IMG/VR virus record: IMGVR_UViG_3300049830_000285
Coordinates: 1-64,000 of that record
Strand: one strand, 5' to 3'
Origin: a virus
Length of the DNA stretch: 64,000 bases
Made by a program: the position numbers and the translations under genes. This document shows positions 7,387-37,930 of the stretch, piece after piece. Below the pieces are notes generated by a model, which saw only the letters and a list, made by a program, of their open reading frames with translations, was not told where the DNA came from and searched no databases. The stretch's first letter is position 1. Every line of letters begins with the position of its first letter.

Positions 7387-8106
7387 ATGCCTGTGCCTCA
7401 AAATGAAATGATTTTAAATTGGAATAACACCATTCGCAAAACAAACGAAGGTGCGCGATATGTTGCTGCGCAAACTGCAACCGGACATCGCGCCAATGGA
7501 TTTAATGCAAGCGAAGCATTAGATTTAATGGTTGGAGACAATTTCGACGTAGACATTGCTAAAGAAGTATTGGCTCAAGTTTACGGTGAAGCGAGCCAGG
7601 GCGCAACACAGCCTAGCAATCCAACTCGATTTGCCATGGTTGTTCCAGTCTCTTACAAAGATGTTGTACCTTTGATTGACGAAGCGTTAACAAAGTTGTC
7701 ACCGTCACAATTTGTAGATTCATTGTTTAATAAGCTGATTGTTTCTTCTAAGCGAGATAGAGACGGTTGGAGACGACTTGCTCATCAATCAATCAACGAC
7801 CCAGTTGCAAAACAAATTTTACACGAAGATTTGCGACCATGGATTGAAGAAACAATGCTTAACTCTGTGTTAATCGCAGAAAAAGAGCAAGGTAGGGTTG
7901 CAATCGTGGATGAAAGCAATAAAAAATATACTGTTTCCTCTGCCACTGGTAGTGCTGAAGTAGACTTGAACGAAGGAACTTGTAGCTGTGATAGATTTAA
8001 CAGTGGTTGTTTTGCTTCCTTTGGTCTTGCTTGTGAACATATGGTTCGAGCGGCTGATACCATTTCCCCGTTCGAGCGATTAACTCGTGCATTAAAAGGC
8101 AAATAA
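7387..8106 (+). CDS. SWIM zinc-finger protein
   Basis: The C-terminus (about residues 192-225) has the SWIM pattern: GTCSCDRF, then LACEHMVRA, giving C-x-C...C-x-H. SWIM fingers bind DNA or protein. The first 190 residues were not recognised and are mixed helical and strand. AAGGAG sits at 7379-7384. The ATG at 7387 is only 2 nt away, so GTG 7393 (spacing 8) is an equally good start. The gene stands alone between a regulated-looking promoter and a strong terminator, suggesting its own control. Confidence 0.8.
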   Translation: MPVPQNEMILNWNNTIRKTNEGARYVAAQTATGHRANGFNASEALDLMVGDNFDVDIAKEVLAQVYGEASQGATQPSNPTRFAMVVPVSYKDVVPLIDEALTKLSPSQFVDSLFNKLIVSSKRDRDGWRRLAHQSINDPVAKQILHEDLRPWIEETMLNSVLIAEKEQGRVAIVDESNKKYTVSSATGSAEVDLNEGTCSCDRFNSGCFASFGLACEHMVRAADTISPFERLTRALKGK

Positions 8107-10340: not shown

Positions 10341-10351
10341 TATTGAAATTC

Positions 10352-12517
10352 ATGAGAAAAACAAAAAATAACAGTGAAGTAAAAGCATCCTCGGAAATTG
10401 CTGAAAGTTTTAAACGAGGCTTGGCTGCCTTTTCACAGGCAGCTTTAGAAGACCAACGTCTGTTAGAACCAGACGAGCACGAGGCAATTCCGGGTGAATT
10501 GCTGGATGAAGACGATTTCGATATTCCGGTGTCCAAAGGGAAGAGAGACAATTGCCCGCCACCGCCCGAGCCTGAAAAAAACAAATTTAACATTGACGGA
10601 ATGGTCGATGTTGTTGTTTTTTGCGAGCACGCTTATTTTCTCAATCTTCGATTAACACCGTGGCAAAAGTTAATTCTTAAGGTTTTTTACTCTGGTAGCC
10701 CAGGTAACACAAATCTTACTATCGAGGATAACAAAACAACAGATTGTTCCGGGTGTGTCTGGAATTACAACAGAAAGTTTGAAAATCTTTATTACAAATC
10801 GCTATTAAAAGACGAGGAAGGCGGGAAGGGAAGCTTGATGCCACCGGAAAACTCCCCATGTTTAATGTGCAATAGATTCAAGTCTGAAATCAGAGCCAAA
10901 CGTTACGAGAAGTTGCGAGAAGAGGCTATTCGACAAGACCAATTTGATGAAATAACATTGTTAGAAGCTCGTGAGTTAGTTGACATGTTTCAAACTGAAA
11001 TGGATTTGCTAAATGACCCTCAGATTGAGCATAAAGTTAGGCAGCAAATACTTGATAAATTCGGTAGAAAATTCCAAGAACTTATTTTGGTACTTGGTCG
11101 TCGTTCTGGAAAATCATTTTTAACGGCTGTTATTACGCTTTATGAAGTATATCGCTTCTTGATGATGGGGCATCCACAGGGAAGATATCCTATCATGGAA
11201 TTTGATATTATAACCATTTTGAATGTTGCTGTTTCTGAGGGTCAGGCAAAAATGGCTATTTTTGATAAAATTAGACAGCTTGCTGAATCCAGCCCGTATT
11301 TTGTGCAATACATCGGAAAGTCATTGCAGAATGAAATGTTCTTCTTAACAGACCACGACAAAGAAGAAAATGTAAGAAGGTTATCAAGAGGTCAAGAGGC
11401 AATGGTTGGAACCATCCAGCTCAAATCTGGGCACTCAAATGCCTCGGGAATGGTTGGAGGAACCATGGCTGTTATCATCATTGATGAAATGGCTGAAATG
11501 GCACCAGCGTCTGCCGAGGGCGGCACCGACGATGAATTGTACGATAAGTTGAAGCCTGCTATTTCTACTTTTGGACGAGATGGGAAAATGATATGTATTT
11601 CCAACCCTCTTGGCCCATATGGTAAATTTTATAAACTGTACTTAGATAGCTTTGACGATAACCTGGTTTTAATGGCTCAGTTGCCCACTTGGTTATCAAA
11701 TCCTTATATTGAGCAAGCTTTTCTTAACCAACAAAAGAAAAAAGACCCCACGAATTACCACGTCTTTTATGGCGCTAAATTTGGCTCTTCTGGTTCTGAT
11801 GCTTGGATAAGTGACGCTTATGTTAAGCGAGCTTTTGAACACATGGGACACACCAGAAGAGCAATTGATGGTAGACCGATGACACGCTATTTCGCGCACC
11901 TTGACCCATCGAAGTCATCGGATTACTATACGCTTGTTGTCTGTCACTCAGAGCCTATGGAAAATGCAATTGGGCCGGACGGAAAGCCAATGCAGCGAAT
12001 TATCATTGACCATATGCATATGTGGAAACCAAAGGGAAAAAACCAACCTATTAATTCCGAAGAAGTGGACAGATATATTCTTAAGCTTGCCACCAGGTTT
12101 AAGTTTGCTCAAATCAGCTATGACCAATGGAACAGTCAAAGTTCAATCACTAAATTGGTTAATCACGGATTAAACGCAGTGCAAAAAACATTTGATATGA
12201 AGTATAAATCAAGCATTTATGGTGAGTTGTATGAATTATTTAATGACGATAGAATCATTTTTTACAATGTTGATTCATTGTATGAAAATGAAACTGACGG
12301 TAAATTTGAAGAATTAATGGAAGTTACTGAATGTAAGAGACAATTTGTGAACTTGCAGAGAAAATTCAGTGGTAAATCATATAAGATTGAAGCACTTCCC
12401 GGATTTCAGGATGATTTTTGCGATGCCGTTGCTGCTGCTTCCTACGAAGCTCTTAAAGACAAAGTATATTCAACTCTTCCGAGGCTACGAACAGCGATGT
12501 TAAGGGGAATCCGATAA
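10352..12517 (+). CDS. terL: Terminase large subunit (packaging ATPase-nuclease)
   Basis: This motor protein pumps DNA into the prohead and cuts it. Visible in 721 residues: Walker A GRRSGKS (about 249-255), Walker B VIIIDEMAEM (about 373-382), coupling motif CISNPLGP (about 415), and nuclease acidic residues in HLDPSKSSDYYT (about 517), SYDQWNS (about 590) and DDFCDAVAAA (about 687). An insert near residues 130-175 has CSGC and CLMC pairs, probably zinc-binding. ATG 10352 is chosen over the in-frame TTG at 10343. There is no ribosome site, and TAGTAT ends 8 nt upstream. Confidence 0.95.
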   Translation: MRKTKNNSEVKASSEIAESFKRGLAAFSQAALEDQRLLEPDEHEAIPGELLDEDDFDIPVSKGKRDNCPPPPEPEKNKFNIDGMVDVVVFCEHAYFLNLRLTPWQKLILKVFYSGSPGNTNLTIEDNKTTDCSGCVWNYNRKFENLYYKSLLKDEEGGKGSLMPPENSPCLMCNRFKSEIRAKRYEKLREEAIRQDQFDEITLLEARELVDMFQTEMDLLNDPQIEHKVRQQILDKFGRKFQELILVLGRRSGKSFLTAVITLYEVYRFLMMGHPQGRYPIMEFDIITILNVAVSEGQAKMAIFDKIRQLAESSPYFVQYIGKSLQNEMFFLTDHDKEENVRRLSRGQEAMVGTIQLKSGHSNASGMVGGTMAVIIIDEMAEMAPASAEGGTDDELYDKLKPAISTFGRDGKMICISNPLGPYGKFYKLYLDSFDDNLVLMAQLPTWLSNPYIEQAFLNQQKKKDPTNYHVFYGAKFGSSGSDAWISDAYVKRAFEHMGHTRRAIDGRPMTRYFAHLDPSKSSDYYTLVVCHSEPMENAIGPDGKPMQRIIIDHMHMWKPKGKNQPINSEEVDRYILKLATRFKFAQISYDQWNSQSSITKLVNHGLNAVQKTFDMKYKSSIYGELYELFNDDRIIFYNVDSLYENETDGKFEELMEVTECKRQFVNLQRKFSGKSYKIEALPGFQDDFCDAVAAASYEALKDKVYSTLPRLRTAMLRGIR

Positions 12518-12576: not shown

Positions 12577-13692
12577 ATGAAGTGTCTTACTTGTGAACAA
12601 AAGGGAGTGGTAATAGCAATGCTATTTAATGACATGCATCAAAAGCATGTTTGCCCAAGATGTTTCGCAGCAAATGAAGATAATATCCGCATTGCTCAAT
12701 TTGGTGGTGCTACTGGCGGAAGACCAAATGCATACTCTCCGGGCACATCACCTGCCGGCCAGGGTGGTGGAAGTAAAAATTATGGAATCAATGATTTTGG
12801 AGCAGACAAAACCATTGATTCTATAATTTCTGGAAGTCATAATCCACCACAAATTGATGAGCACCGCAACATCGAGCGTAGACTTGAAGTATATCATCAA
12901 CATAAAGAAGAAGATATGATTCCATACTGGTTAACCCCAGAAGAACGCGAAAAACTAAGAATTAAAAAAGAAGTGCGTAGACGAAATGAATGGTTGGAAA
13001 AATCCAAACACATGACAGACACAAATGCGGTTTCATATATTCAAAGAAATTTTCAGCCAAAGCCAGAGCACATGTCTACATTGGAGTCCCAGTTAATCAA
13101 TAGACACAAGTACAAGCCTGGGGATAAATCAAAATATGAAGACGAACTGCCGCCTGTTGCTAAGCCCGAACGAATTCACATGGCTCAAACAACAACACAC
13201 GGACGAACAAGTCCGTTTGACTCTACTACAGATGACGAAGAAGAAGCAGCGTATCCCAATTTTGACAATATCAGAATGAAAACACCACTGGGTGTTGGCA
13301 ACGCCCCTACTTTTGATAAAGGTTCAGAACTTGATGAATATTTAGACAAAGCATATAAGGCAGACTGGGGTGGATTAGAAGGGCCAAATGAGCCTACGTT
13401 GATGGACATTCCTAACGCAGATAATATCGGAAATCATTCGTGGGGATTTGGAGACAAAATTCCGTCTGCTGTTCATGGCGAAATAGATAGCGACTTAGAT
13501 GCATTTATGCCACTTGAACAACAGCTTGAAAGTACCAAAAGGCAAGAATCGCCCTTGCGCAATCCAAATGACCCATTTAGCTACTGGAGCGAATACGAAA
13601 CTGCGAAAGGTGTCGGAACACCTGGGGAGCCACTTGGCTTTGCTGATAAATATAGTGGCGGTTCATTCAATCCAAGCCCTATTCCTCGCTAA
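12577..13692 (+). CDS. Zinc-ribbon protein of unknown function
   Basis: The 371-residue product begins with a zinc-ribbon-like pair, CLTC (3-6) and CPRC about 22 residues later. It continues as a low-complexity, glycine-rich then charged protein with few hydrophobic segments. It follows the large terminase by about 60 nt, so it may be a packaging or virion accessory protein. The start is uncertain: ATG 12577 keeps the zinc motif, while a TTG at 12529 would add 16 residues. The 3' end overlaps the convergent methyltransferase by 4 nt. Confidence 0.65.
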   Translation: MKCLTCEQKGVVIAMLFNDMHQKHVCPRCFAANEDNIRIAQFGGATGGRPNAYSPGTSPAGQGGGSKNYGINDFGADKTIDSIISGSHNPPQIDEHRNIERRLEVYHQHKEEDMIPYWLTPEEREKLRIKKEVRRRNEWLEKSKHMTDTNAVSYIQRNFQPKPEHMSTLESQLINRHKYKPGDKSKYEDELPPVAKPERIHMAQTTTHGRTSPFDSTTDDEEEAAYPNFDNIRMKTPLGVGNAPTFDKGSELDEYLDKAYKADWGGLEGPNEPTLMDIPNADNIGNHSWGFGDKIPSAVHGEIDSDLDAFMPLEQQLESTKRQESPLRNPNDPFSYWSEYETAKGVGTPGEPLGFADKYSGGSFNPSPIPR

Positions 13693-15554
13693 CGCTTGGT
13701 GTGTAACCTGACTTGTTTGCTATTTTTCATCTTTGAAAAATAGACTTCTTTTGGCAAAATGTTTAAATCATAAACCATTGGCACGAGCACATTAGTTAAT
13801 GATTTGTGCTTTTGCTTGTATTCTGTGTACATACTGTTAATCAATTGGCTTGGTGCATTTTGTCCACACAATGCTTTTCTCCATTGATACCAACCAGAAT
13901 CATCTCTGTTTAGTTGATATTTTGCTTCTGCCAAGTGCTTGTATGGGAGAAGCATTTCGTATAACAAGTTACAGTGTTTCAACAATTCAGATGAATGTGA
14001 ATTTATTTCATTGTTTGATAGCCACTCATTCACATAACCGCCCAACCAAAAAAAATGATTCTTAATATCAACTTGCTCGCCATTATAGTTCGCGATTAAG
14101 CTAGCAGAGTGATTGAAATTACTAAACAGCAACCATACAATGAGATTATTTTTCAAATTTATGTAATCATCATGAGAAATGTCAGGCGCATTAAATTGGT
14201 CTTTATCATTTAGCCATGTTCCTTTAATAATAGCTCTCAATCCAAGCGCGACCAAGGATTCCTCGAAATTCTCTTTAGTGATTCCCCATCCACTGCCGTT
14301 AGCATAAGGCGCTGACAATAAATATGCTTGTTTGGAGTGCATCACGTCATTTGCGGCAAATACGGCAAATCCCATAGCGTCTTCGGGTAATTTGGTTAGA
14401 TTAATAGTTTTGTCGGGTGACGCCACTGTGATAGCGCTAGTAAATGGTACAGAATCAATAGTGTTTTTCGGACGCTTCACCCACTTGCTCAATGGTGCTG
14501 AAGGGGTAAAAAACGCCTTCTTACCAACTAATTTACGATTTTCATAAACATCTACATCAACTGATTTTTGGCTGCCAGATGATGACCAAATACTAAATAC
14601 AACGGGCCATTCTCCAGTCGTTCCTTCGAACTCGCTGCAATGAAAACAAAAACCATCAATAAACTTAAATGAGCTTAACCACTCTTGGTAAAACGATGAA
14701 TATGTTGGATTCATCGCAAATGATATTTGAGTGAACATTCCCACAGTAACATTCAAGTTATACTTATCGACCAGTTGTTTGATTTTCCATAAAAACTGTG
14801 TTGTAAGATTGGATGAGGCTTTATTCATCGCGGCTTCTTTCATCAAGGCACCTATTCGAGTATCTGCGACTCCCTTTTTATGGTCATCTCTTATGGTTGG
14901 GCTGGCAGAATATGGCGGGTTCAAGATAAACACCCACTCTGTGGATGTTTCAAGAAAATCATAATTCATATCAGAGTTAAGAAAATCTTGTGAAAACACA
15001 TGCCCGTTTTTGAATTTAGAACTGTTTAATATGTCAACATCTTCCGCGTTCAACGTTGACATATATAGCTGAGAATGCATTTCATTTGGACATTTTTTCG
15101 TAAGATTTCCAGTGCCACAACACATATCCCACCATGGCGTGGTGTACATTTTTTCACCAAGGTGCTTTGATAAATATGCATGTCCCAAGTCAGCATAAAA
15201 AGTGGGTGTGAAAAATTCGCCATCTGTTCTTCTAGACCACAAATCCACCAATCTATCTTTTTGTGATGTGATTTCGTTTAAGTTACCAGGCCTTGCATAT
15301 TTACCCCAGAATTCAAGATACGCCCAATGATTTAATTGAACATCTCCGCTCGCTGTTTGAACAGTATGGTGATACACGTCATATGTTCCGCGCTCACTTA
15401 TATCTTCAAAAAAAGCTTGTACATAAGTTTGCGTATCATGTCCCTCTGGCGCAAATTTCATCCATTCGTCAAATACTTTGTCGAAATTATTGGATGTAAT
15501 ATATGTTTTTGTCGGCTCAAAGTCATCGAGCATTTTTAACAAATTGTTTGCCAT
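13689..15554 (-). CDS. DNA adenine-N6 methyltransferase-like protein
   Basis: The 621-residue protein has the AdoMet-binding motif WWDMCCGTGNL (about 130-140) and the catalytic NPPY motif (ILNPPYS, about 205). Both are in the order found in gamma-class N6-adenine methyltransferases. The long C-terminal part may hold target recognition. No endonuclease motif was recognised, so it may be an orphan enzyme that masks phage DNA. The start is placed at 15554 because farther codons run into the divergent mutase gene. TATAAG lies 6 nt upstream, without a ribosome site. It ends with TAG and is the first minus-strand gene in the window. Confidence 0.85.
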   Translation of the reverse strand: MANNLLKMLDDFEPTKTYITSNNFDKVFDEWMKFAPEGHDTQTYVQAFFEDISERGTYDVYHHTVQTASGDVQLNHWAYLEFWGKYARPGNLNEITSQKDRLVDLWSRRTDGEFFTPTFYADLGHAYLSKHLGEKMYTTPWWDMCCGTGNLTKKCPNEMHSQLYMSTLNAEDVDILNSSKFKNGHVFSQDFLNSDMNYDFLETSTEWVFILNPPYSASPTIRDDHKKGVADTRIGALMKEAAMNKASSNLTTQFLWKIKQLVDKYNLNVTVGMFTQISFAMNPTYSSFYQEWLSSFKFIDGFCFHCSEFEGTTGEWPVVFSIWSSSGSQKSVDVDVYENRKLVGKKAFFTPSAPLSKWVKRPKNTIDSVPFTSAITVASPDKTINLTKLPEDAMGFAVFAANDVMHSKQAYLLSAPYANGSGWGITKENFEESLVALGLRAIIKGTWLNDKDQFNAPDISHDDYINLKNNLIVWLLFSNFNHSASLIANYNGEQVDIKNHFFWLGGYVNEWLSNNEINSHSSELLKHCNLLYEMLLPYKHLAEAKYQLNRDDSGWYQWRKALCGQNAPSQLINSMYTEYKQKHKSLTNVLVPMVYDLNILPKEVYFSKMKNSKQVRLHTKR

Positions 15555-15558
15555 ACAC

Positions 15559-15582
15559 AGCTTATACATGACTGTATAAGCT
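15559..15582. promoter_or_regulatory. Palindromic divergent promoter between methyltransferase and mutase
   Basis: AGCTTATACA (15559-15568) and TGTATAAGCT (15573-15582) are exact complements around TGAC. Each arm carries TATAAG on one strand. The minus-strand copy ends 6 nt before the methyltransferase ATG. The plus-strand copy (or TAAGCT, 15577-15582) ends 7-9 nt before the mutase ATG. Both genes lack Shine-Dalgarno sites. Confidence 0.6.
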
Positions 15583-15589
15583 ATATGTA

Positions 15590-16696
15590 ATGAAATACGA
15601 CTATCTAATTGTTGGAGCTGGGCTTTTCGGATGCACCTTTGCGCATGAAGCTCACAAGCACGGCAAAAAGGTACTCGTAATAGAAAAGAGACCGTATATC
15701 GGGGGAGATTGCCACACCGAGGAAATGGAGGGCATTCATGTTCATTTACACGGGCCACATATATTTCATTGCTCGCAGAAGTATTTATGGAATTATATCA
15801 ATCAGTTCGCGAGTTTTAATAATTTTCAATTAAGAGTTAAGGCAAACTACAACAACAGACTTTATTCATTTCCAATCAATCTGAGCACGATGCATGAAGT
15901 TTGGGGTGTGACAACGCCAGCGGCTGGAAAAGATAAAATTGCCAACACACTTGTTCCGTGCGACAATCCAAAGAATTTTGAGGATTTTGCTTTGTCGCAA
16001 ATCGGAAGTGAATTATATCAAATGTTTATTTATGGATACACTAAGAAAGTATGGAGTAAGGAGCCCAAATTATTGCCATCATCCATTATTAAACGCCTTC
16101 CGTACAAACTCCATCACTGCGGTAGACACTACCCGGATACAGATATTTATGAAGGTATTCCCGTTGGCGGGTACACTCAAATCTTTGAAAAAATGTTAAA
16201 TGGAGTTGAGGTGTTGCTTAACACAGATTTTTTAAGCAACAAACAATATTACGAATCCCTTGCAGACAAGGTAGTTTACACAGGAGCACTAGACCAGTAT
16301 TTCAACTATGAACACGGTGCTTTGGAATTCCGCTCATTGCGATATCAACTTGAACGTCACGATGGTGATTATCAAGGGCATGCGCAGATTAATTACACCC
16401 ATGAAGATATTCCATGGATTAGAATTATTGAGCATAAGCATTTTGAGTTTAAAGCAAGTCTGCCGCACACTTATATTAGTAAAGAGTTTCCAGAGCCATA
16501 TGATGGCACAAATTTGCCATATTATCCTCTTAACGATGAAAAAAACAATGCTTTACAAAAAACATACCAACATCAGGCTAGTTTGATACCCAATTTAATA
16601 GTAGGCGGAAGGTTGGGCGAGTATCGTTATCAAGATATGGATATTGTGCTGGCAGCAGCATTACACACAGCTCGAAAGGAGTTCGAAGGAGCATAG
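15590..16696 (+). CDS. glf: UDP-galactopyranose mutase
   Basis: This flavoenzyme converts UDP-galactopyranose to UDP-galactofuranose. The 368-residue product has the FAD Rossmann motif VGAGLFGC (8-15) with the acidic EK end of the second strand, and the family's HGPHIFHCS segment. It also has YGYTKKVW, the VGGYTQIFEKML segment and the C-terminal GRLGEYRYQDMD that contacts FAD. Length is normal for the family and no residue seems lost. It is rare in phages. With the pyruvyl-transferase-like and glycosyltransferase genes at 47.7-50.2 kb it suggests surface-sugar modification. It ends with two consecutive TAG codons. Confidence 0.95.
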   Translation: MKYDYLIVGAGLFGCTFAHEAHKHGKKVLVIEKRPYIGGDCHTEEMEGIHVHLHGPHIFHCSQKYLWNYINQFASFNNFQLRVKANYNNRLYSFPINLSTMHEVWGVTTPAAGKDKIANTLVPCDNPKNFEDFALSQIGSELYQMFIYGYTKKVWSKEPKLLPSSIIKRLPYKLHHCGRHYPDTDIYEGIPVGGYTQIFEKMLNGVEVLLNTDFLSNKQYYESLADKVVYTGALDQYFNYEHGALEFRSLRYQLERHDGDYQGHAQINYTHEDIPWIRIIEHKHFEFKASLPHTYISKEFPEPYDGTNLPYYPLNDEKNNALQKTYQHQASLIPNLIVGGRLGEYRYQDMDIVLAAALHTARKEFEGA

Positions 16697-26837: not shown

Positions 26838-29270
26838 ATGGCTAATAATAATAACAAAGCGGAGGGACTAGACGTTGCAATTGCGTCAGCAGCAAGAGAA
26901 GCTCTTGGTAAAAAGTCCACCCGTACCGCAGCAAGCACAACCCCACCTGGTGCGAATTCTTCAGAACATGTTCCACTTCCGGGTGTCCGAACGGGGCGCA
27001 TGGATGGAACGGTTACCAGGCGAATGGGGCAGTTCTCGGGCGGTGGTAGTAATACCAGCTTAGGGCCACCATCATTTTACGCACCATGGTTAACCGCATC
27101 TTCTTGGCAAATACCCAATAATAGAAAGGAAATCTATTTATGGGCACAATGGTGGGTTGATAACGAACCTAAAGTTGCCGCTGGTATTGAATTTTACACA
27201 GATTTTCCATTAAGTGGCTTTACACTTGAATGCCCAAATGCTTATGTTAAAGATTACTTTGAGAAGTTGAACAAAAAGCTGAAAATCAGTAAGAAAAATC
27301 CGCAAATTTCTCAAGAATATCATCTTAGGGGAGATTGTTTTGTTTTAGCCTCGCTAGAGTGCGAAAAATGTGGTGGAATGAATGAAGACCCCGATACGGG
27401 TGAACCGTGTAAACACGAAGGCGCTTCGTGGAAGGGATTGTCAATTTTAAATCCAGACCACATTGAAGTTCATCCAGCTATGCTCGACCAAGAGCCAGAA
27501 TATTTCTTCTTACCAGATGATATGATGAAAAAAGTAGTTCAGGAAAGAAGACCTGAAAAACTTTATAATTCAATGAGACCAGAAATGCGAAAGCTGATTT
27601 TAAGCGGTCAGCCAATTCATTTCTCTCCAGAATGTATTTATCACTTTAAGCGCGGCGGTCAACCCTGGCAGCCATTTGGTACCTCTCTTTTGCGTCGATT
27701 GTTCCAGACTCTTGCTTATAAGGATAAATTGCGTCAAGCTCAATGGTTGGTTGCAGAACGACACATCATTCCTATTAAAATCGTTAAGATTGGTGATAAA
27801 GACCGACCCGCAACAGAAGAAGATTTGATTGATGCACAAGACGAGCTTACAGCCCTCGCAAATGACCCTCTTCTTACTATTGTAACTCACCACGCATTTG
27901 ATTTTGATTATGTTGGCGCAAGCGGTAAGGTGCTGCAACTAACAAATGAATATGAAAATCTAAACCAAGATATTATTGATGGCTTGATGTTAAATAAAGC
28001 TATTATTAATGGCGAAGGGCCGTCATATAGTAATGCTCAAGTTGGATTGCTTACAATGGCTAAAAGACTTGAAAGATTCCGAGAAGAAGTGGCATTCTGG
28101 ATGGAAGAGCATCTTTATAAACCAGTTGCTATGTGGAACGGATTTACCACAGAAGGTAAGCGTGGTCAAATCGAATATGTTTACCCGACAGTAAAATTTG
28201 ATGATTTGCAATTACGAGATGACACCGGAAAGTTACAAACACTATTAGCTGCAAATCAGGCTGGTATTGTTTCAAATCAATCTGTTGTTGAAGCTTTGGG
28301 ATTACCATATGACCAAGAAGTTGAAAGACTTAGATTTGAACAAGGTTCTTCATTTATATCTTCACCAGACTTAATGAACACTGACATGAATAATGGATTT
28401 GGTCAAGGCGCGGGCGGCATGGGCAACGGCTTCCGTGGCCCAATTCCAGGGGCTCCGGGTGGTGCTCCAGGTGGCGCATCTCCAAGTGCCCCGATGGGAG
28501 CACCAGATATGGGCGGCATGCCTGGTTTGGCACCAGCAGCGAGTAATGACTGGAAAGCTAATTATAGATTTGCTTCCACGGTCAGCGGGGATATGTATGA
28601 TGTTCAATTGGCAACATGTCAAAATGAGCGCATTATTCGAACAGCTAGTAGAAAAATTCTCAGTCAAGCACATAAGGAATACATTGAAAGCATCGCACCA
28701 GTAACGGGAAGAGGCGCTTTGGGCGCTCTAGATATAGAGCCAAATGATGTATTTTCACAACTTGCTTTTGGGCCGAATGATGGTGGGCCGTTCTGTACTG
28801 CTATGAATAGAGCAGCTATGTATGAGATTATTCAATTTGATAAAGAAATGACTAATCGAGGCATGGTAAGAACTGGCGCTAAGAAAGGTGAAACCAAGCA
28901 AACATATCGCTTTACATCATTGGAACAAAAGCTATATCGACTCTTAATGCAAGCTGGATTACCTTTTGCCTGGTATGCACAGTATCTTGCTGGGCCGATG
29001 ACACAGCACTTCGAATATCAACTAGATGCCGCTATCCCAGCTATTAAATTGGGATTGGAAGCGGACGGTGAAATCTATCATAGTAATCCTGAAAAAATTG
29101 CTAAAGATAGAAAACGAGACTCATTACTAGCAACACAAGGTTGGACAATACTTCGTTTCACTGAAAGCGAATTAAATGAACATCCAGAAGAAGTGTTAAA
29201 AGTTATTATGCAAATGATTAGAAGGCTGATGGGCGCTGGCGAACATGTCGGTTCTACCGTTATTTTGTAA
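26838..29270 (+). CDS. Portal protein fused to a DUF559/Vsr-like nuclease domain
   Basis: Residues 1 to about 520 look like a phage portal: WWVDNEPKVAAGIEFYTDF, a LRGDCFVLASLE strand, NPDHIEVHP, FGTSLLRRLFQ and a long-helix NEYENLNQDIIDGLM region, with a CEKC...C-x-H zinc-like insert near 175-193. A glycine/proline linker (about 525-575) follows. The C-terminal part (about 690-800) carries the conserved residues of the PD-(D/E)XK family DUF559: Glu696, Gln715, Asp730, Glu741-x-Asp743, His748, Asp757, Asp761, then GW and RF. One unbroken frame joins both. A TATAAT at 26810 precedes a short leader. Confidence 0.85.
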   Translation: MANNNNKAEGLDVAIASAAREALGKKSTRTAASTTPPGANSSEHVPLPGVRTGRMDGTVTRRMGQFSGGGSNTSLGPPSFYAPWLTASSWQIPNNRKEIYLWAQWWVDNEPKVAAGIEFYTDFPLSGFTLECPNAYVKDYFEKLNKKLKISKKNPQISQEYHLRGDCFVLASLECEKCGGMNEDPDTGEPCKHEGASWKGLSILNPDHIEVHPAMLDQEPEYFFLPDDMMKKVVQERRPEKLYNSMRPEMRKLILSGQPIHFSPECIYHFKRGGQPWQPFGTSLLRRLFQTLAYKDKLRQAQWLVAERHIIPIKIVKIGDKDRPATEEDLIDAQDELTALANDPLLTIVTHHAFDFDYVGASGKVLQLTNEYENLNQDIIDGLMLNKAIINGEGPSYSNAQVGLLTMAKRLERFREEVAFWMEEHLYKPVAMWNGFTTEGKRGQIEYVYPTVKFDDLQLRDDTGKLQTLLAANQAGIVSNQSVVEALGLPYDQEVERLRFEQGSSFISSPDLMNTDMNNGFGQGAGGMGNGFRGPIPGAPGGAPGGASPSAPMGAPDMGGMPGLAPAASNDWKANYRFASTVSGDMYDVQLATCQNERIIRTASRKILSQAHKEYIESIAPVTGRGALGALDIEPNDVFSQLAFGPNDGGPFCTAMNRAAMYEIIQFDKEMTNRGMVRTGAKKGETKQTYRFTSLEQKLYRLLMQAGLPFAWYAQYLAGPMTQHFEYQLDAAIPAIKLGLEADGEIYHSNPEKIAKDRKRDSLLATQGWTILRFTESELNEHPEEVLKVIMQMIRRLMGAGEHVGSTVIL

Positions 29271-29443: not shown

Positions 29444-32400
29444 ATGATGGAAAGACAAGGCAAATCAGGCGGATTCATTACGATAAGTAGTCTGATTATG
29501 AGTGAGGATAGAAAGAAAGCTGTTCCGCAGCGTCTTGCTATGGCTTCAGGTTCTGCTATGCGAATGGCAGCAAAAGAGGGTCTTTTAAGTTTATATGCTG
29601 ATGCAGATGATGTATTAGATAAATATAAAGATTTCGATATCGCCGCTTCTATGCGCGAACACAAAGGAAAATTACTGTGGGTGAGAGCGCGAGCTATTGA
29701 CGCAGATGTTGCTAACGCAAACGGTGATTATTTCAGTGAAAAGGAATTGCTTGGTGAGGTTGTTGACCAAAAGGGTAACAAAATGCCAGCCTACAAAACG
29801 TTTGAAGGCGTTCCGATTTACACAAACCACAAAAATGATGATATTGAACAAGCCAAGGGTATGGTTGTTTATGCCGAATGGGATGAAAAAGAAAAATGTG
29901 TTTATTGTACATTTATCGTAGACGAAGAAGCATATCCTGAAATTGCACGTGGTATTCGAGTTGGATATATGCATGATGTCTCAATGGGATGTCAAGTTGA
30001 ATCCGGTACATGTTCTGAGTGCGAAAATAAAGCATCAACAGAAAAAGAATATTGTGATTGTCTTAAAAAGTATAAAGGCAAAAAGCATCCCAAAACTGGT
30101 AAAAAGGTTTACGAAAAAAATCATGGTATCAAATTTATTGAACTTTCTGTTGTTGGTGACGGCGCTTTCGATAGTTGTATGATTGAAGAAATCTACGATG
30201 TAGATGATATTCTAAACAAAGCTGCTAATCTTGACAAAAGAGCAGAGTCAATCAGAAGTTCAATCATTGTCGCAAGTACATCCACTCCAAAAGACTTCAT
30301 GGTACGAAGAGCATATGAAGATTGTCTTCGTACTGCATATGATACAACTAAGCAGACTATTCGTGTAGCACAAAGTGCTGGCACGTTAGTTGGCGGTCAA
30401 TTGCTTGCTGGAGAGGGAGCGGGAAATAACACTACAGTTTCCAACATCTTGAAGTTCCTTGGTATTGAAGGTACCGCAGGATTGAATATTCTTGATATGT
30501 TGAACTTAGCGCTCAACTTTTTGGAAGTTGCCGTTATGAATCTTTTCGCTAGAAAAGATAATGTAGATTTGGCACACGTTGGCAAAATCACTAAATCTAT
30601 GGCTGATTTACAATCAACCATGCAAGATATGATTGATGATGGAGTCGAAACAGGCGGAAATGGTCAGCAACCTATGAATCAAGGTTCAATGCAGCCACCA
30701 CAAGAAGCACAACCAGGTGGTCAAACTCCACAAGACGATTATTCACAGGGCGCAGTAGGGCGCTCAATGGGGCCTCAAGCTCCACAGGGCGCACCTCAAG
30801 GTGGCGCACCTCAAACACAGAATCAGGCATTCCAGGGAATGCCGATGGGATTTGGTGGTGGTATTTTTGCCAACAGCAATTTCAACCGCGTAGTTTGGGC
30901 ACATGATGATGAGGAAGAGGTTTCTAGCAGAACTGTCACGGCAGCTACTATGCGAGAAACAAATGAATCATTTGAAATGAGCCCTGCGACTTACAACAGT
31001 AAGTCCGTGACAAAGTTGGCAGAATCTATTATGAGTCTAGCTGACACGCTTGGTGTATCAACTCATCAAGCAACCCCAAATCCAGTAGTGGCATCAAAAC
31101 CACTGCCAAACAAACCAAGCACCCAGACCGGAGGAAATAAAACAATGAGCATTGACTTTTTCAAGCAGTTCAAACAGTCTCGCAATAAGCGAGAGGCCGC
31201 GGTGATGGAGCAGGAAGTCAAGGTTTCTGATAAATCAGGACATCAACTTCGGCTCTCCGCTGACGGTAGCATCAAGGCATATTATCAAGGACAACTTGTT
31301 CCTGATTTTGACCCAATTCTTACAGAAGAGCACAAAGCAGCTATTGAAGCTGAAGACGGCCCTCGCGTAGCCGCCGCCCTTTTATCAGATTTTCAGAGAT
31401 TTACTCGAACTGCTGAGTGGAAACCATCTCATGAATACAATGAAACACGAGAAGAACAATTAGAAGCAGTTCGAACTGGAACTGACGATGATGTGAAAGA
31501 AAATCTTCTTGGTGATAAAGCTGGTCGATATAATCGAACCAACGAAGAGCAAGATATCAAAGAAAGAGAGCTTGGTAAGAAAGATTTGCGACCTGGCACC
31601 GACGATGAGGTAAAAGAAAATCTTCTTGGTGACAAAGCTGGATTGTATTCTCGACAGAACAATGAAATTGATGTTCGAGAGAATTTAATCAATGACGCTC
31701 GACGTGGGCACCCTGTCGATGTTATTGAACTCCAACTTGACCAAGTTCGAAAGAATTACGGGCCTGGTGACACTGGTTTGGTTACAACTGCGAGTGTTGA
31801 TGCTTTGTGCAAAGCTGTTATTGCTGCACGAGTAACTCCAGAAGAAGTTGTTGAAGCAACTCAAGTGCTTGCTGAAAGAGCTGATTTCGTTGAATTGCTT
31901 CAACTTGCTCACCTTGGTGATAAAACTCGCCGCGTTGAAGCAAAGCGAAATGATTTCTGGAAACTTGGTAGCACCGAAATTGCTGCTGAAGCTGCTGTAC
32001 TTGACGCTCTTGGAACTGCTGTAACTAATGAAATTACTGCTGCTGACATTGCAGAATGTCTTCATGTTGTAACATCAGAAGTAAGCAAGGCTATTCAGTC
32101 AGTTACTCGAATGGTTAAAGCTCATATAGGAGACAACTCTGGTGTCGAACCTTCTATGTTGCGCAAGACAGTTTCTAAAGCTGACAAATATCGCGCAGCT
32201 TTGGCTACCATTGCCGAAACTGAAACCGAACAACCGATGAAAGACCATATCAAAACAGCTTTGTTTGCTTTTGCAAATGCCGCTGACGAATTGGCTGCTC
32301 ATCCACATGAAATTGTTGCTGCTTTATCAAGTGTTGAAGAATCTGATTTGCTCGCAGACATGGAGCTTGCTCGTTCTGCCGCAGTTCGCGCTTCTCGATT

Positions 32401-33760
32401 AACAGTTAGAGCACGTCGCGATTTCTGGGGTGCGGGACGCTTTGCTTCTAAAGAAGGCGTTTATGAAAATGTTGTTGGTTGGTTGGCTGACTATGCGGAA
32501 GCTGGTAACTACTCCAGCGGAAGCATTGTTACTGCTGCTAAGAAATTGGTTGCACAGCCAGTTGCTGCTGAGAAATTAATCAGCAAGGTTATTACAACCA
32601 CAACTAAAACAGCCGCTATTCAGGTAACTGACGAGCGAACAAGCACCAAGCGATTGGAATGCACTGTGACCGATATTGGTCTTGACCCGAAAGATGAGGG
32701 TTTTGAATCTGCTTTTCGAGACAAGGCAATTGAAATCATGGCTTCCAACGGATACACAGTTGACCCATCTACTTTCACATTCACTGATTTAAATATCAAC
32801 GGCGAAACAGTTAGCGCATCTGTAACCTCTACAGTTCGAAAAACATTTAATGCCGATGCTCCTAGCACTGGTATGGTGTCTGGTGCAACTGATGGTGGCG
32901 ATATTTCAGCCAATGTTTCAGCACCTGGTTCAGAAGAAATAGCTGAAGCAGCTCCTACCGAAGAGCCAACAGTAGTTATGAGTGAATCAATCAAGAACAT
33001 TCGAATCGCACAGCGACAAGAAATCTTGAGTCGATATGCTCAAATGCCTGGTGGTGGTGGTGGTATGGGCGCTGGTGCCCCTGGTGGAGCTGGTGCTCCT
33101 CCTGCTGGTGATTTAGCTGGTGCGGCTGACGGACTTGGCATTTCCTCGTTCACTGCTCCAACTGCTGAAAATCCAGATGAAGACCCAACAAATGTTGACG
33201 ATATGTCTGAACCAGGAACTAAAAAGCCATGGGGGACAATTTGTCCACAGTGTGGTAGTGAAGATGTTGATGTTGCAAACGGTGAAGGCAACTGTAACTC
33301 ATGTAATGCTCAAATTGAGTATGAGTTCAGCGCCAAAGTTAAGCCAAGTAGTGACAAAGATAAAGGAGCTGAGCCAGCACCTGCCGCTGACGAAGCCGCA
33401 GCACCTGAGCTTGGTGGAGATATGGGACTTGGCGGAGCAACTGCTCCTGCACCTGCTGGTGGCGCTCCCGGTGGAGCCGCACCTGGCCCTGGTGGAACTG
33501 CACCAATGATGATGTCCGCCTCTTACAAGACTAGCCCAGAAGTATTGATTCGTGTTGCACAACTTGGTGACAATTTCGATAGAAATGCTGAAAAGGTTCT
33601 TCCTGTGGGATTCGTATGTCCTAAGTGTGGAGACAAGAATGCAAACAAAATTGCATCAATCGGACGCTCCTATTGCTACGAATGCGGAACCATTGCCGCA
33701 TCTGAAATTCAAGAAAGAAACGGAGAACTTTACTCCACCATTTCATGGGTTATTAACTAA
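29444..33760 (+). CDS. Prohead protease fused to a long scaffold-like and zinc-ribbon region
   Basis: The first 250 residues match phage prohead maturation proteases: ANANGDYFSEKEL, the FEGVPIYTNH segment with likely catalytic His129, MHDVSMG with likely Ser180, a four-cysteine insert (CSEC...CDC), and IKFIELSVVGDGAFD. The remaining 1190 residues are helical, with glycine/proline linkers, a 39-residue tandem repeat (about 679-732) and two C-terminal zinc ribbons (CPQC...CNSC, CPKC...CYEC). At 1438 residues it is far longer than a free protease. Four R-x-A-Q sites occur in it. AGGAGA precedes ATG 29444. A strong internal start lies at 31145. Confidence 0.85.
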   Translation: MMERQGKSGGFITISSLIMSEDRKKAVPQRLAMASGSAMRMAAKEGLLSLYADADDVLDKYKDFDIAASMREHKGKLLWVRARAIDADVANANGDYFSEKELLGEVVDQKGNKMPAYKTFEGVPIYTNHKNDDIEQAKGMVVYAEWDEKEKCVYCTFIVDEEAYPEIARGIRVGYMHDVSMGCQVESGTCSECENKASTEKEYCDCLKKYKGKKHPKTGKKVYEKNHGIKFIELSVVGDGAFDSCMIEEIYDVDDILNKAANLDKRAESIRSSIIVASTSTPKDFMVRRAYEDCLRTAYDTTKQTIRVAQSAGTLVGGQLLAGEGAGNNTTVSNILKFLGIEGTAGLNILDMLNLALNFLEVAVMNLFARKDNVDLAHVGKITKSMADLQSTMQDMIDDGVETGGNGQQPMNQGSMQPPQEAQPGGQTPQDDYSQGAVGRSMGPQAPQGAPQGGAPQTQNQAFQGMPMGFGGGIFANSNFNRVVWAHDDEEEVSSRTVTAATMRETNESFEMSPATYNSKSVTKLAESIMSLADTLGVSTHQATPNPVVASKPLPNKPSTQTGGNKTMSIDFFKQFKQSRNKREAAVMEQEVKVSDKSGHQLRLSADGSIKAYYQGQLVPDFDPILTEEHKAAIEAEDGPRVAAALLSDFQRFTRTAEWKPSHEYNETREEQLEAVRTGTDDDVKENLLGDKAGRYNRTNEEQDIKERELGKKDLRPGTDDEVKENLLGDKAGLYSRQNNEIDVRENLINDARRGHPVDVIELQLDQVRKNYGPGDTGLVTTASVDALCKAVIAARVTPEEVVEATQVLAERADFVELLQLAHLGDKTRRVEAKRNDFWKLGSTEIAAEAAVLDALGTAVTNEITAADIAECLHVVTSEVSKAIQSVTRMVKAHIGDNSGVEPSMLRKTVSKADKYRAALATIAETETEQPMKDHIKTALFAFANAADELAAHPHEIVAALSSVEESDLLADMELARSAAVRASRLTVRARRDFWGAGRFASKEGVYENVVGWLADYAEAGNYSSGSIVTAAKKLVAQPVAAEKLISKVITTTTKTAAIQVTDERTSTKRLECTVTDIGLDPKDEGFESAFRDKAIEIMASNGYTVDPSTFTFTDLNINGETVSASVTSTVRKTFNADAPSTGMVSGATDGGDISANVSAPGSEEIAEAAPTEEPTVVMSESIKNIRIAQRQEILSRYAQMPGGGGGMGAGAPGGAGAPPAGDLAGAADGLGISSFTAPTAENPDEDPTNVDDMSEPGTKKPWGTICPQCGSEDVDVANGEGNCNSCNAQIEYEFSAKVKPSSDKDKGAEPAPAADEAAAPELGGDMGLGGATAPAPAGGAPGGAAPGPGGTAPMMMSASYKTSPEVLIRVAQLGDNFDRNAEKVLPVGFVCPKCGDKNANKIASIGRSYCYECGTIAASEIQERNGELYSTISWVIN
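31145..33760 (+). CDS. Possible nested scaffold product from an internal start
   Basis: Within the protease fusion frame, a clean GGAGG (31130-31134) lies 10 nt before the in-frame ATG at 31145 (codon 568). The region before it is a glycine/proline-rich linker. The nested product would be 871 residues without the protease domain. This is the arrangement of lambda C/Nu3, where the scaffold is made from an internal start of the protease gene. No direct evidence of translation exists. Confidence 0.5.
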   Translation: MSIDFFKQFKQSRNKREAAVMEQEVKVSDKSGHQLRLSADGSIKAYYQGQLVPDFDPILTEEHKAAIEAEDGPRVAAALLSDFQRFTRTAEWKPSHEYNETREEQLEAVRTGTDDDVKENLLGDKAGRYNRTNEEQDIKERELGKKDLRPGTDDEVKENLLGDKAGLYSRQNNEIDVRENLINDARRGHPVDVIELQLDQVRKNYGPGDTGLVTTASVDALCKAVIAARVTPEEVVEATQVLAERADFVELLQLAHLGDKTRRVEAKRNDFWKLGSTEIAAEAAVLDALGTAVTNEITAADIAECLHVVTSEVSKAIQSVTRMVKAHIGDNSGVEPSMLRKTVSKADKYRAALATIAETETEQPMKDHIKTALFAFANAADELAAHPHEIVAALSSVEESDLLADMELARSAAVRASRLTVRARRDFWGAGRFASKEGVYENVVGWLADYAEAGNYSSGSIVTAAKKLVAQPVAAEKLISKVITTTTKTAAIQVTDERTSTKRLECTVTDIGLDPKDEGFESAFRDKAIEIMASNGYTVDPSTFTFTDLNINGETVSASVTSTVRKTFNADAPSTGMVSGATDGGDISANVSAPGSEEIAEAAPTEEPTVVMSESIKNIRIAQRQEILSRYAQMPGGGGGMGAGAPGGAGAPPAGDLAGAADGLGISSFTAPTAENPDEDPTNVDDMSEPGTKKPWGTICPQCGSEDVDVANGEGNCNSCNAQIEYEFSAKVKPSSDKDKGAEPAPAADEAAAPELGGDMGLGGATAPAPAGGAPGGAAPGPGGTAPMMMSASYKTSPEVLIRVAQLGDNFDRNAEKVLPVGFVCPKCGDKNANKIASIGRSYCYECGTIAASEIQERNGELYSTISWVIN
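31478..31641 (+). repeat. 47-bp imperfect direct repeat in the protease fusion gene
   Basis: Copies at 31478-31524 and 31595-31641 are offset by 117 bp (39 codons). Both encode GTDD-x-VKENLLGDKAG. The DNA differs mainly at third positions, so the duplication is old enough to have been shaped by selection. Confidence 0.75.
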
Positions 33761-36546: not shown

Positions 36547-37407
36547 ATGAGCATGGTACGAAACAATCGAAACACCAATGAGCAAAGAGAAGCTATTATT
36601 GCAATGGCTCTTGACACCGCCGATGGACGTGTTGCTCTCGCGCAAGCGATGGTGGAACCCATCAAAACAAGCTTGATGTATCAAGCAATCGGACGTAAGC
36701 TTTTGATGGTAGACGAATTGCCTCAAGGCGCTCTCCCACGATACGAACGAGATGTGGCTGTGAAGTCATATGTCATTCCAAAGCGTGGTATGGTTCCAAC
36801 TCACGTAGTTGAAGCTGAAGAGTTGTTAATCCCAGTTGTTGAGTTGGCTACCAACCCTACAATCAAGATTAACGAAATCAACCAACGACGATACTACATC
36901 GTTGACCGAGCGCAAGTTCGTGCAAAGGATAGTATCCAACGACAAGAAGACGTTGAAGTGTTCAAGGTCATCAACGCCGCAGTTCCTACCGACCACAGCA
37001 TTGCTGTTGCTGGTACATTGCAGCCAGAAAACATCAACCTCGCGTTGACGTTGATTGAAGAGCACGAATTGATTGGCGCAAAGGTCATTATGCACCCACA
37101 GCGCTACAAGGACGTTCGAGACTGGGGTAAGGATTTCTTCGACGAGGCAACTCAACGAGACATCTTGATGACTGGTCTTTACGGTCACATCTACTCTGCG
37201 GACATCCATGTTTCGACAATGGTTCCAAAGAACGCTGTGTACGTGCTTGCACCTGCGCAGTTCGTAGGCGCGATGCCTGTTCGACAGGACATCACTGTTC
37301 TTCCTGCTGACGACCCTAAGAAGCTTCGACTTGGTTGGGTTGTTTTCGAAGAAGTTGGCTTCGGTGTTATAAACGACTACGCGATTAGTCGAATCATCGT
37401 TAGCTAA
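36547..37407 (+). CDS. Major capsid protein (HK97-like)
   Basis: The 286-residue product has features of HK97-fold capsid proteins. The N-terminal part has RKLLMVDELPQGALPRYERD, then a YIVDRAQVRAKDSIQRQED helix. Later come the IMHPQRYKDVRDWG and FFDEATQRDILMTGLYG segments, VPKNAVYVLAP, FVGAMPVRQDITVLP, and a final GWVVFEEVGFGVIND strand. AAGGAG precedes the ATG. A second ATG follows two codons later. Codon choice differs from most of the window: C-ending pairs and CGA for arginine dominate. A strong terminator follows, closing the head operon. Confidence 0.85.
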   Translation: MSMVRNNRNTNEQREAIIAMALDTADGRVALAQAMVEPIKTSLMYQAIGRKLLMVDELPQGALPRYERDVAVKSYVIPKRGMVPTHVVEAEELLIPVVELATNPTIKINEINQRRYYIVDRAQVRAKDSIQRQEDVEVFKVINAAVPTDHSIAVAGTLQPENINLALTLIEEHELIGAKVIMHPQRYKDVRDWGKDFFDEATQRDILMTGLYGHIYSADIHVSTMVPKNAVYVLAPAQFVGAMPVRQDITVLPADDPKKLRLGWVVFEEVGFGVINDYAISRIIVS

Positions 37408-37492: not shown

Positions 37493-37930
37493 ATGTTAGA
37501 AAGATGGAAGTTAAAAACTCCGCGAGATAAATCGTTAATAAATATTCACGTTTTACATCAAGAGACATTTAATAAATTTGGTTATTATCCAGAAGAAATA
37601 TCTCATGCATCAAGCAAAGAAGTCGCCTGGAAGTGCCTAGATTGTCCAAAAATATCGTTCGGAAGAGAAAAGGATATTAAAAAAGGTAAGAGATGCTTGT
37701 CTTGCGCACAAAGAATAAGAACTCAAAATCGCAATCAGCAAATGAAAGAACAAGGCTTAGCTCCAAACGGTATCGTTTTAGGAACTAGAAATAAAGTTGG
37801 TTATCGAGAAAAACACCGATTATGGCGTAAAAAATGGCGTGCCACTCCAATTGGCTGTCTAACCAACCGTCTTCGCGTCAGTCTGAAGAGAGTTCATAAA
37901 GGGATGATTGTAAGATATCACAATATCTAA
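37493..37930 (+). CDS. Zinc-ribbon protein, possibly homing-endonuclease related
   Basis: The 145-residue basic product has a segment (about 28-77) with FGYYPEEISHASSKEVAWKC, LDC and RCLSC. This fits the two-CxxC zinc-ribbon type found next to nuclease domains in homing enzymes. The C-terminal half is rich in R, K and W but no HNH or GIY-YIG core was found. It may be a DNA-binding remnant or a stand-alone regulator. It is transcribed from a leaderless-type promoter just after the head module. Confidence 0.55.
   Translation: MLERWKLKTPRDKSLINIHVLHQETFNKFGYYPEEISHASSKEVAWKCLDCPKISFGREKDIKKGKRCLSCAQRIRTQNRNQQMKEQGLAPNGIVLGTRNKVGYREKHRLWRKKWRATPIGCLTNRLRVSLKRVHKGMIVRYHNI

Follow-up and report, generated by a model that had tools for sequence, protein, structure and literature searches.

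A portal protein carrying a predicted DUF559/Vsr-type nuclease domain in a lineage of uncultured large and giant phages

The fusion gene and its surroundings

The window analysed here, 64,000 nt of a 177,708-bp viral contig, contains a head operon in which a portal gene sits with terminase, protease and capsid genes, and continues in the same frame into a predicted nuclease. The features of the locus are as follows (evidence in brackets).

10343..12517, + strand: large terminase subunit, TerL (PHROG 2, E = 2.8e-26)
26838..29270, + strand: portal-nuclease fusion gene, 810 aa, a single open frame (architecture shared with 65 other loci)
27120..28352, + strand: portal core, residues about 95-505 (Portal_Mu, PHROG 16240, YonE 9pha, Foldseek)
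28353..28541, + strand: Gly/Pro/Met-rich flexible linker, residues about 506-568 (low pLDDT, pairwise identity, dN/dS)
28542..28907, + strand: variable, partly helical spacer, residues about 569-690 (pairwise identity, dN/dS, deep relatives)
28908..29228, + strand: predicted DUF559/Vsr-type PD-(D/E)XK nuclease domain, residues about 691-797 (Pfam, models, Foldseek, hhalign)
28923..28925, + strand: E696, aligned with Vsr E25 (hhalign; invariant)
29025..29027, + strand: D730, aligned with Vsr D51 (hhalign; invariant)
29058..29081, + strand: E741-A-D743-G-E-I-Y-H748 (D743 with Vsr H64 and H748 with Vsr H69 by hhalign; E741, D743 and H748 invariant)
29106..29120, + strand: D757-x-x-R760-D761 helix signature (invariant)
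29229..29267, + strand: C-terminal tail with a hydrophobic end (like ends in many relatives)
29444..33760, + strand: head-maturation-protease-type protein, directly downstream of the fusion gene (PHROG 18299, E = 3.2e-19)
36547..37407, + strand: major capsid protein (PHROG 2522, E = 6.5e-67)

Reading of the frame in the window found an ATG start, a TAA stop and zero internal stops in the fusion gene, confirming the single unbroken 810-codon frame claimed by the first-pass annotation. The Gly/Pro-rich linker that it described is also present, and is Met-rich too, but it is not adjacent to the nuclease, as the spacer lies between the two. The linker is predicted with low pLDDT and has a mean pairwise identity of 0.53, whilst the fast-evolving spacer has a mean pairwise identity of 0.50 and is mostly absent from the deepest relatives (L212, L281 and L283). 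A short hydrophobic stretch (for example TVIL, SITL or EIKI), possibly a docking peptide, closes the C-terminus of many fused portals.

The window TerL has Walker motifs plus its own C-terminal nuclease acidic motifs, the whole set lying at residues 252, 378, 519, 592 and 690, and the TerL of most relatives aligns nearly to the C-terminal end of the window protein. Because the window TerL has all motifs, we rule out that the portal domain replaces a lost TerL nuclease. Directly 3′ of the fused portal, most relatives also have a protease-type head gene; the window product (1438 aa) combines a protease-type N-terminus with two CxxC zinc-ribbon-like segments near its end. The small protein encoded after the capsid gene (37493-37930) has a treble-clef zinc finger that is DUF4379-like, below the cut-off, and is possibly a relative of mobile endonucleases. 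A methyltransferase-like gene with an NPPY motif lies at 13689-15758 on the - strand, opposite to the flanking structural genes, and was not found in the eight related phage records searched.

Other candidate head and debranching nucleases were sought in the fusion-bearing records, which may be incomplete. T4 gp4 was not found in any of those searched, nor were the endonuclease VII, RuvC and T7 endonuclease I families. RusA-type resolvases turned up in five of eight records, in two cases scoring above the curated cut-off; in those phages the portal nuclease would therefore not be alone in a debranching role.

The portal half and the nuclease half

The fusion protein is a true portal subunit. 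Residues 261-486 match Pfam Portal_Mu over the cut-off (E = 7e-8 to 1.4e-7), the portal half matches PHROG 16240 'portal protein' at E = 3.1e-36, and the core has a profile match to YonE, the SPbeta portal (9pha). When a full-length AlphaFold2 model of low to moderate confidence (mean pLDDT 57 overall) was compared with the PDB by Foldseek, 89 matches were obtained at E <= 0.001; of these, 50 were listed, each of them a portal, neck or portal-vertex entry, and they include the lambda, T4, HK97 and GTA portals.

The first-pass annotation had placed a PD-(D/E)XK nuclease at the C-terminus of this portal, and this assignment was upheld by Pfam, two AlphaFold2 models, Foldseek, an invariant active site and purifying selection. 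For a 132-residue C-terminal piece, the Pfam match to MTES_1575 (E = 6.8e-12) reached 45.8 bits against a cut-off of 38.2 and that to DUF559 (E = 1e-10) 41.9 bits against 20.6, well outside what chance would give. The AlphaFold2 model of the domain, which has moderate confidence (mean pLDDT 76, from an alignment of nine sequences only), contains an alpha-beta-beta-beta-alpha-beta core that recurs in the full-length model, so that structure prediction did return the PD-(D/E)XK core and gave no model lacking it. The best solved matches of the domain model are I-Bth0305I (3r3p), the DUF559 protein 3hrl and Vsr (1cw0), with Foldseek probabilities of 0.99-1.00 and E-values of 0.0017-0.015.

Profile alignment with Escherichia coli Vsr (hhalign, E = 4.7e-5, probability 68%) pairs E696, D730, D743 and H748 with Vsr E25, D51, H64 and H69, the residue numbers having been counted from the alignment. 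D51 of Vsr is a metal ligand. The catalytic residues thus stand in the Vsr/EDxHD-type order E, D, H/D, H, D, and the residue numbers given in the first-pass annotation (E696, Q715, D730, E741-x-D743, H748, D757, D761, G768-W769 and R773-F774) proved exact. Taken with the models, these alignments support a DUF559/Vsr-type PD-(D/E)XK fold for the nuclease half; the domain is probably an active DNA endonuclease.

Distribution, selection and descent

A search for the same fusion in other phage portals, proposed in the first-pass annotation, found it at 65 further viral loci. Scanning IMG/VR with a portal-based pattern gave a primary set of 65 loci. Of these, 56 encode the fused protein as a single frame of the expected length, seven are cut by a contig end and one (L068) has the fused protein in one frame with an intein. 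The remaining locus (L054) is the sole exception to the unbroken frame: a single in-frame TGA interrupts the linker at 7687-7689, after which the nuclease frame resumes, and a real split, readthrough and a sequencing error cannot be told apart. Later scans added eight further loci (L179, L203, L212 and L281-L285), all fused, of which L281-L285 are biased towards nuclease presence because they were located through the nuclease; the others were located through the portal. Besides the window, there are 65 unbroken fusions on independent contigs from many metagenomes, a total that includes near-identical copies from related samples.

The bearers are uncultured large and giant phages of one lineage, the longer records including contigs of 169, 296, 300, 316, 347, 358, 379 and 476 kb. 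The fusion is kept down to about 43% portal-core identity to the window, and every full-length member of the clade except L054 has the nuclease fused to the portal, an essential gene. Beyond the clade, portals that are 24-29% identical (phage G gp14, 648 aa; Rctr197k_046; L213) have no nuclease match at the C-terminus, and none was seen in the LR745208 portal, as judged by reading its 566-aa frame only. No relative came up when contigs of bacterial and archaeal genomes were searched with the portal alignment. The distant portal of L213 (4704-7751, 1016 aa, 29% identity) is extended at its C-terminus in another way, by a segment that shows a CxxC...HxxxC pattern and matches no nuclease. From one lineage to the next, portals seem to acquire different C-terminal modules.

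Several deeper relatives also have intein-like in-frame insertions in the portal gene (L068 5818-9342, L212 4794-8069, L281 833-4300, L282 89-4474 and L285 2-4546), with two in the L282 gene and at least three in that of L285. The insertions of L068 and L212 match LAGLIDADG_3. Their sites differ and fall at conserved portal positions, corresponding in the window to A361/S362, Y397/S398 and near residues 105-122.

Selection on the nuclease is as strong as that on the portal core. All 13 nuclease residues checked, among them the active-site signature E-Q-D-E-D-H-D-R-D, are invariant in each of the 57 intein-free fused portals, window included. Pooled over 286 pairs of moderate divergence, the portal core has a dN/dS of 0.045 and the nuclease one of 0.044, whereas the linker (0.189) and the spacer (0.148) are both relaxed. 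Large synonymous differences make these values rough, but the regions contrast strongly. Among 30 representatives, distances in the portal core correlate with those in the nuclease (rho 0.90, Mantel p = 0.001), which indicates that both halves were inherited together. As the two trees also share their main groups, the fusion must be older than a clade in which portal-core identity to the window falls to about 43%. The fusion is therefore old, vertically co-inherited and kept by purifying selection, and an active site that is old, invariant and vertically inherited argues that the phage needs a working enzyme. In most whole fusion-bearing records no DUF559 match besides the portal domain exceeds the curated cut-off (G009 and G011, whose portals are identical, have one additional match), and this points to a fixed structural role rather than to a spreading mobile family.

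Possible function and rival explanations

About twelve subunits make up the ring of a portal, with the C-terminus in the crown, and the crown faces the capsid inside. The stem, wing and crown of the T4 portal lie within the capsid (PMC9958956), as do the crown and wing of the JBD30 portal (PMC11445458). Because the crown holds the C-terminus, the nuclease arm most likely points into the head interior. With a nuclease at the tip of each subunit's long and flexible C-terminal arm, the inward crown of the twelve-membered ring would bring roughly twelve copies together round the inner mouth of the DNA channel, where the flexible linker could let them form a cloud. A nuclease in this position must be selective or restrained, because tightly packed phage DNA surrounds it.

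The lumenal placement, activity, substrate and timing of the nuclease are what we infer here, and we give about an even chance to the proposal that the tethered domain makes selective cuts in DNA at the vertex while the head is being packaged or is maturing. Candidate substrates would be unfinished ends, aberrant or branched DNA, or DNA that lacks a required feature. TerL retains motifs of its own for the motor and for cutting. Two T4 proteins offer precedents: gp4 is a head-completion nuclease needed for morphogenesis, according to the account of Benler 2020 cited in PMC7824862, and the gp49 resolvase is portal-bound and releases stalled packaging of branched DNA (PMC9958956). A more elaborate version, in which the ring of about twelve tethered Vsr-type nucleases forms a lineage-wide DNA-cutting checkpoint in the head that inspects or finishes the DNA passing the portal, is tentative and less likely than not.

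Trimming or regulation at the packaging stage ranks above attack on foreign DNA. Vsr/DUF559-type nucleases are often site- or structure-specific and giant phages often carry anti-competitor genes, both of which would suit a portal-nuclease that attacks the DNA of the host, of plasmids or of rival phages but leaves that of the phage intact, whether free or assembled within the infected cell or delivered at entry; toxin domains do occur on phage head proteins, in the MuF polymorphic toxins (PMC3482391). Such a weapon is the main rival reading, yet an unlikely one. Weapons usually diversify, whereas this nuclease is of one fixed type, inherited with the portal and constrained like the portal core, no conserved immunity-type gene lies downstream of the fused portal, and the shared methyltransferase of a self-protection pair is absent. 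A restriction-modification-like pair with the 13689-15758 gene was ruled out, as the gene is not shared by the eight related records. Hypermodified DNA as a self-marker was likewise rejected, in a search limited to the thymidylate synthase route of base modification, in which no member of that family was found. With no thymidylate synthase and an unshared methyltransferase-like gene, self-recognition by modification gets no support.

The nuclease might instead assist TerL in choosing or processing DNA ends, at the first cut or the headful cut. HNH proteins beside terminases, and T4 gp4, are thought to help terminase make ends, and the vertex location, the head-operon gene order, an intact TerL and the failure to find T4 gp4 in the fusion-bearing records searched all fit such a partnership. 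We rate it as unlikely too: gp4 is unrelated in sequence (hhalign probability 0.25%), and terminase docks on the outer clip of the portal, so an arm that starts at the inner C-terminal crown would have to take an unusual route to reach it. A remnant that is inactive or merely structural, such as a homing endonuclease that the portal gene took up and that now only binds DNA, is very unlikely. The nearest solved catalytic domain, that of I-Bth0305I, does belong to a homing endonuclease, and homing-type inteins occur within the same gene in several relatives, but the active-site residues are invariant in all sequences examined, dN/dS is 0.044, presence is not patchy inside the clade and the nuclease lies outside any intron or intein. 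An assembly or reading-frame artefact, to which only the L054 stop codon would lend colour, has a negligible probability, and a chimera is excluded because the unbroken fusion recurs on independent contigs.

The usual view of portals is that they act as channels and sensors and leave cutting to terminase. A conserved nuclease built into the portal would station an enzyme where the channel opens into the head. Questions about packaging termination, DNA quality control and competition would become open to direct tests, since one active-site change in one protein separates the portal and nuclease roles. If true, a portal-based DNA checkpoint would be a step not described for any portal found in the papers searched. 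The fusion also offers a signature by which a large and uncultured lineage of phages can be recognised in sequence data.

Comparison with known systems

The fused domain resembles DUF559 and MTES_1575 (PF04480, PF18741), scoring above both curated cut-offs, carrying the signature D...ExDG....H...D..RD..L...GW..LRF and having the predicted fold of 3hrl. To our knowledge, members of these families are free-standing or joined to other enzyme domains; here the nuclease is the C-terminal domain of a portal. Its four active-site residues align with those of Vsr, and Vsr and I-Bth0305I are both among its top Foldseek matches. It differs from Vsr in having D743 at the H64 position, and from both proteins in that no repair partner genes, intron or intein surround it. 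The marks of a homing endonuclease, carriage in an intron or intein or a free-standing gene with patchy distribution, are not found.

The portal core is of the Mu/phage G type (Portal_Mu, PHROG 16240), with the gene order terminase - portal - protease - capsid, and, unlike the portals of phage G (gp14), Rctr197k_046 and L213, it carries a nuclease. T4 gp4 is also a restriction-fold nuclease at the phage head (PMC7824862), but it is a separate small protein, and the same hhalign comparison gives it no sequence relation to the fused domain. In MuF polymorphic toxins, too, a phage head protein ends in a nuclease or another kind of toxin domain at its C-terminus (PMC3482391). The fused portal is ruled out as one of them by its carrier, which is a portal and not MuF, by one fixed domain in place of a swapped set, and by the lack of a conserved small gene downstream that could encode immunity.

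No portal fused to a DUF559, Vsr or other nuclease domain is described in the papers searched, whose coverage of subscription journals is partial, in line with the first-pass view that such a portal was undescribed. The fused portal is a new architecture built from two known parts.
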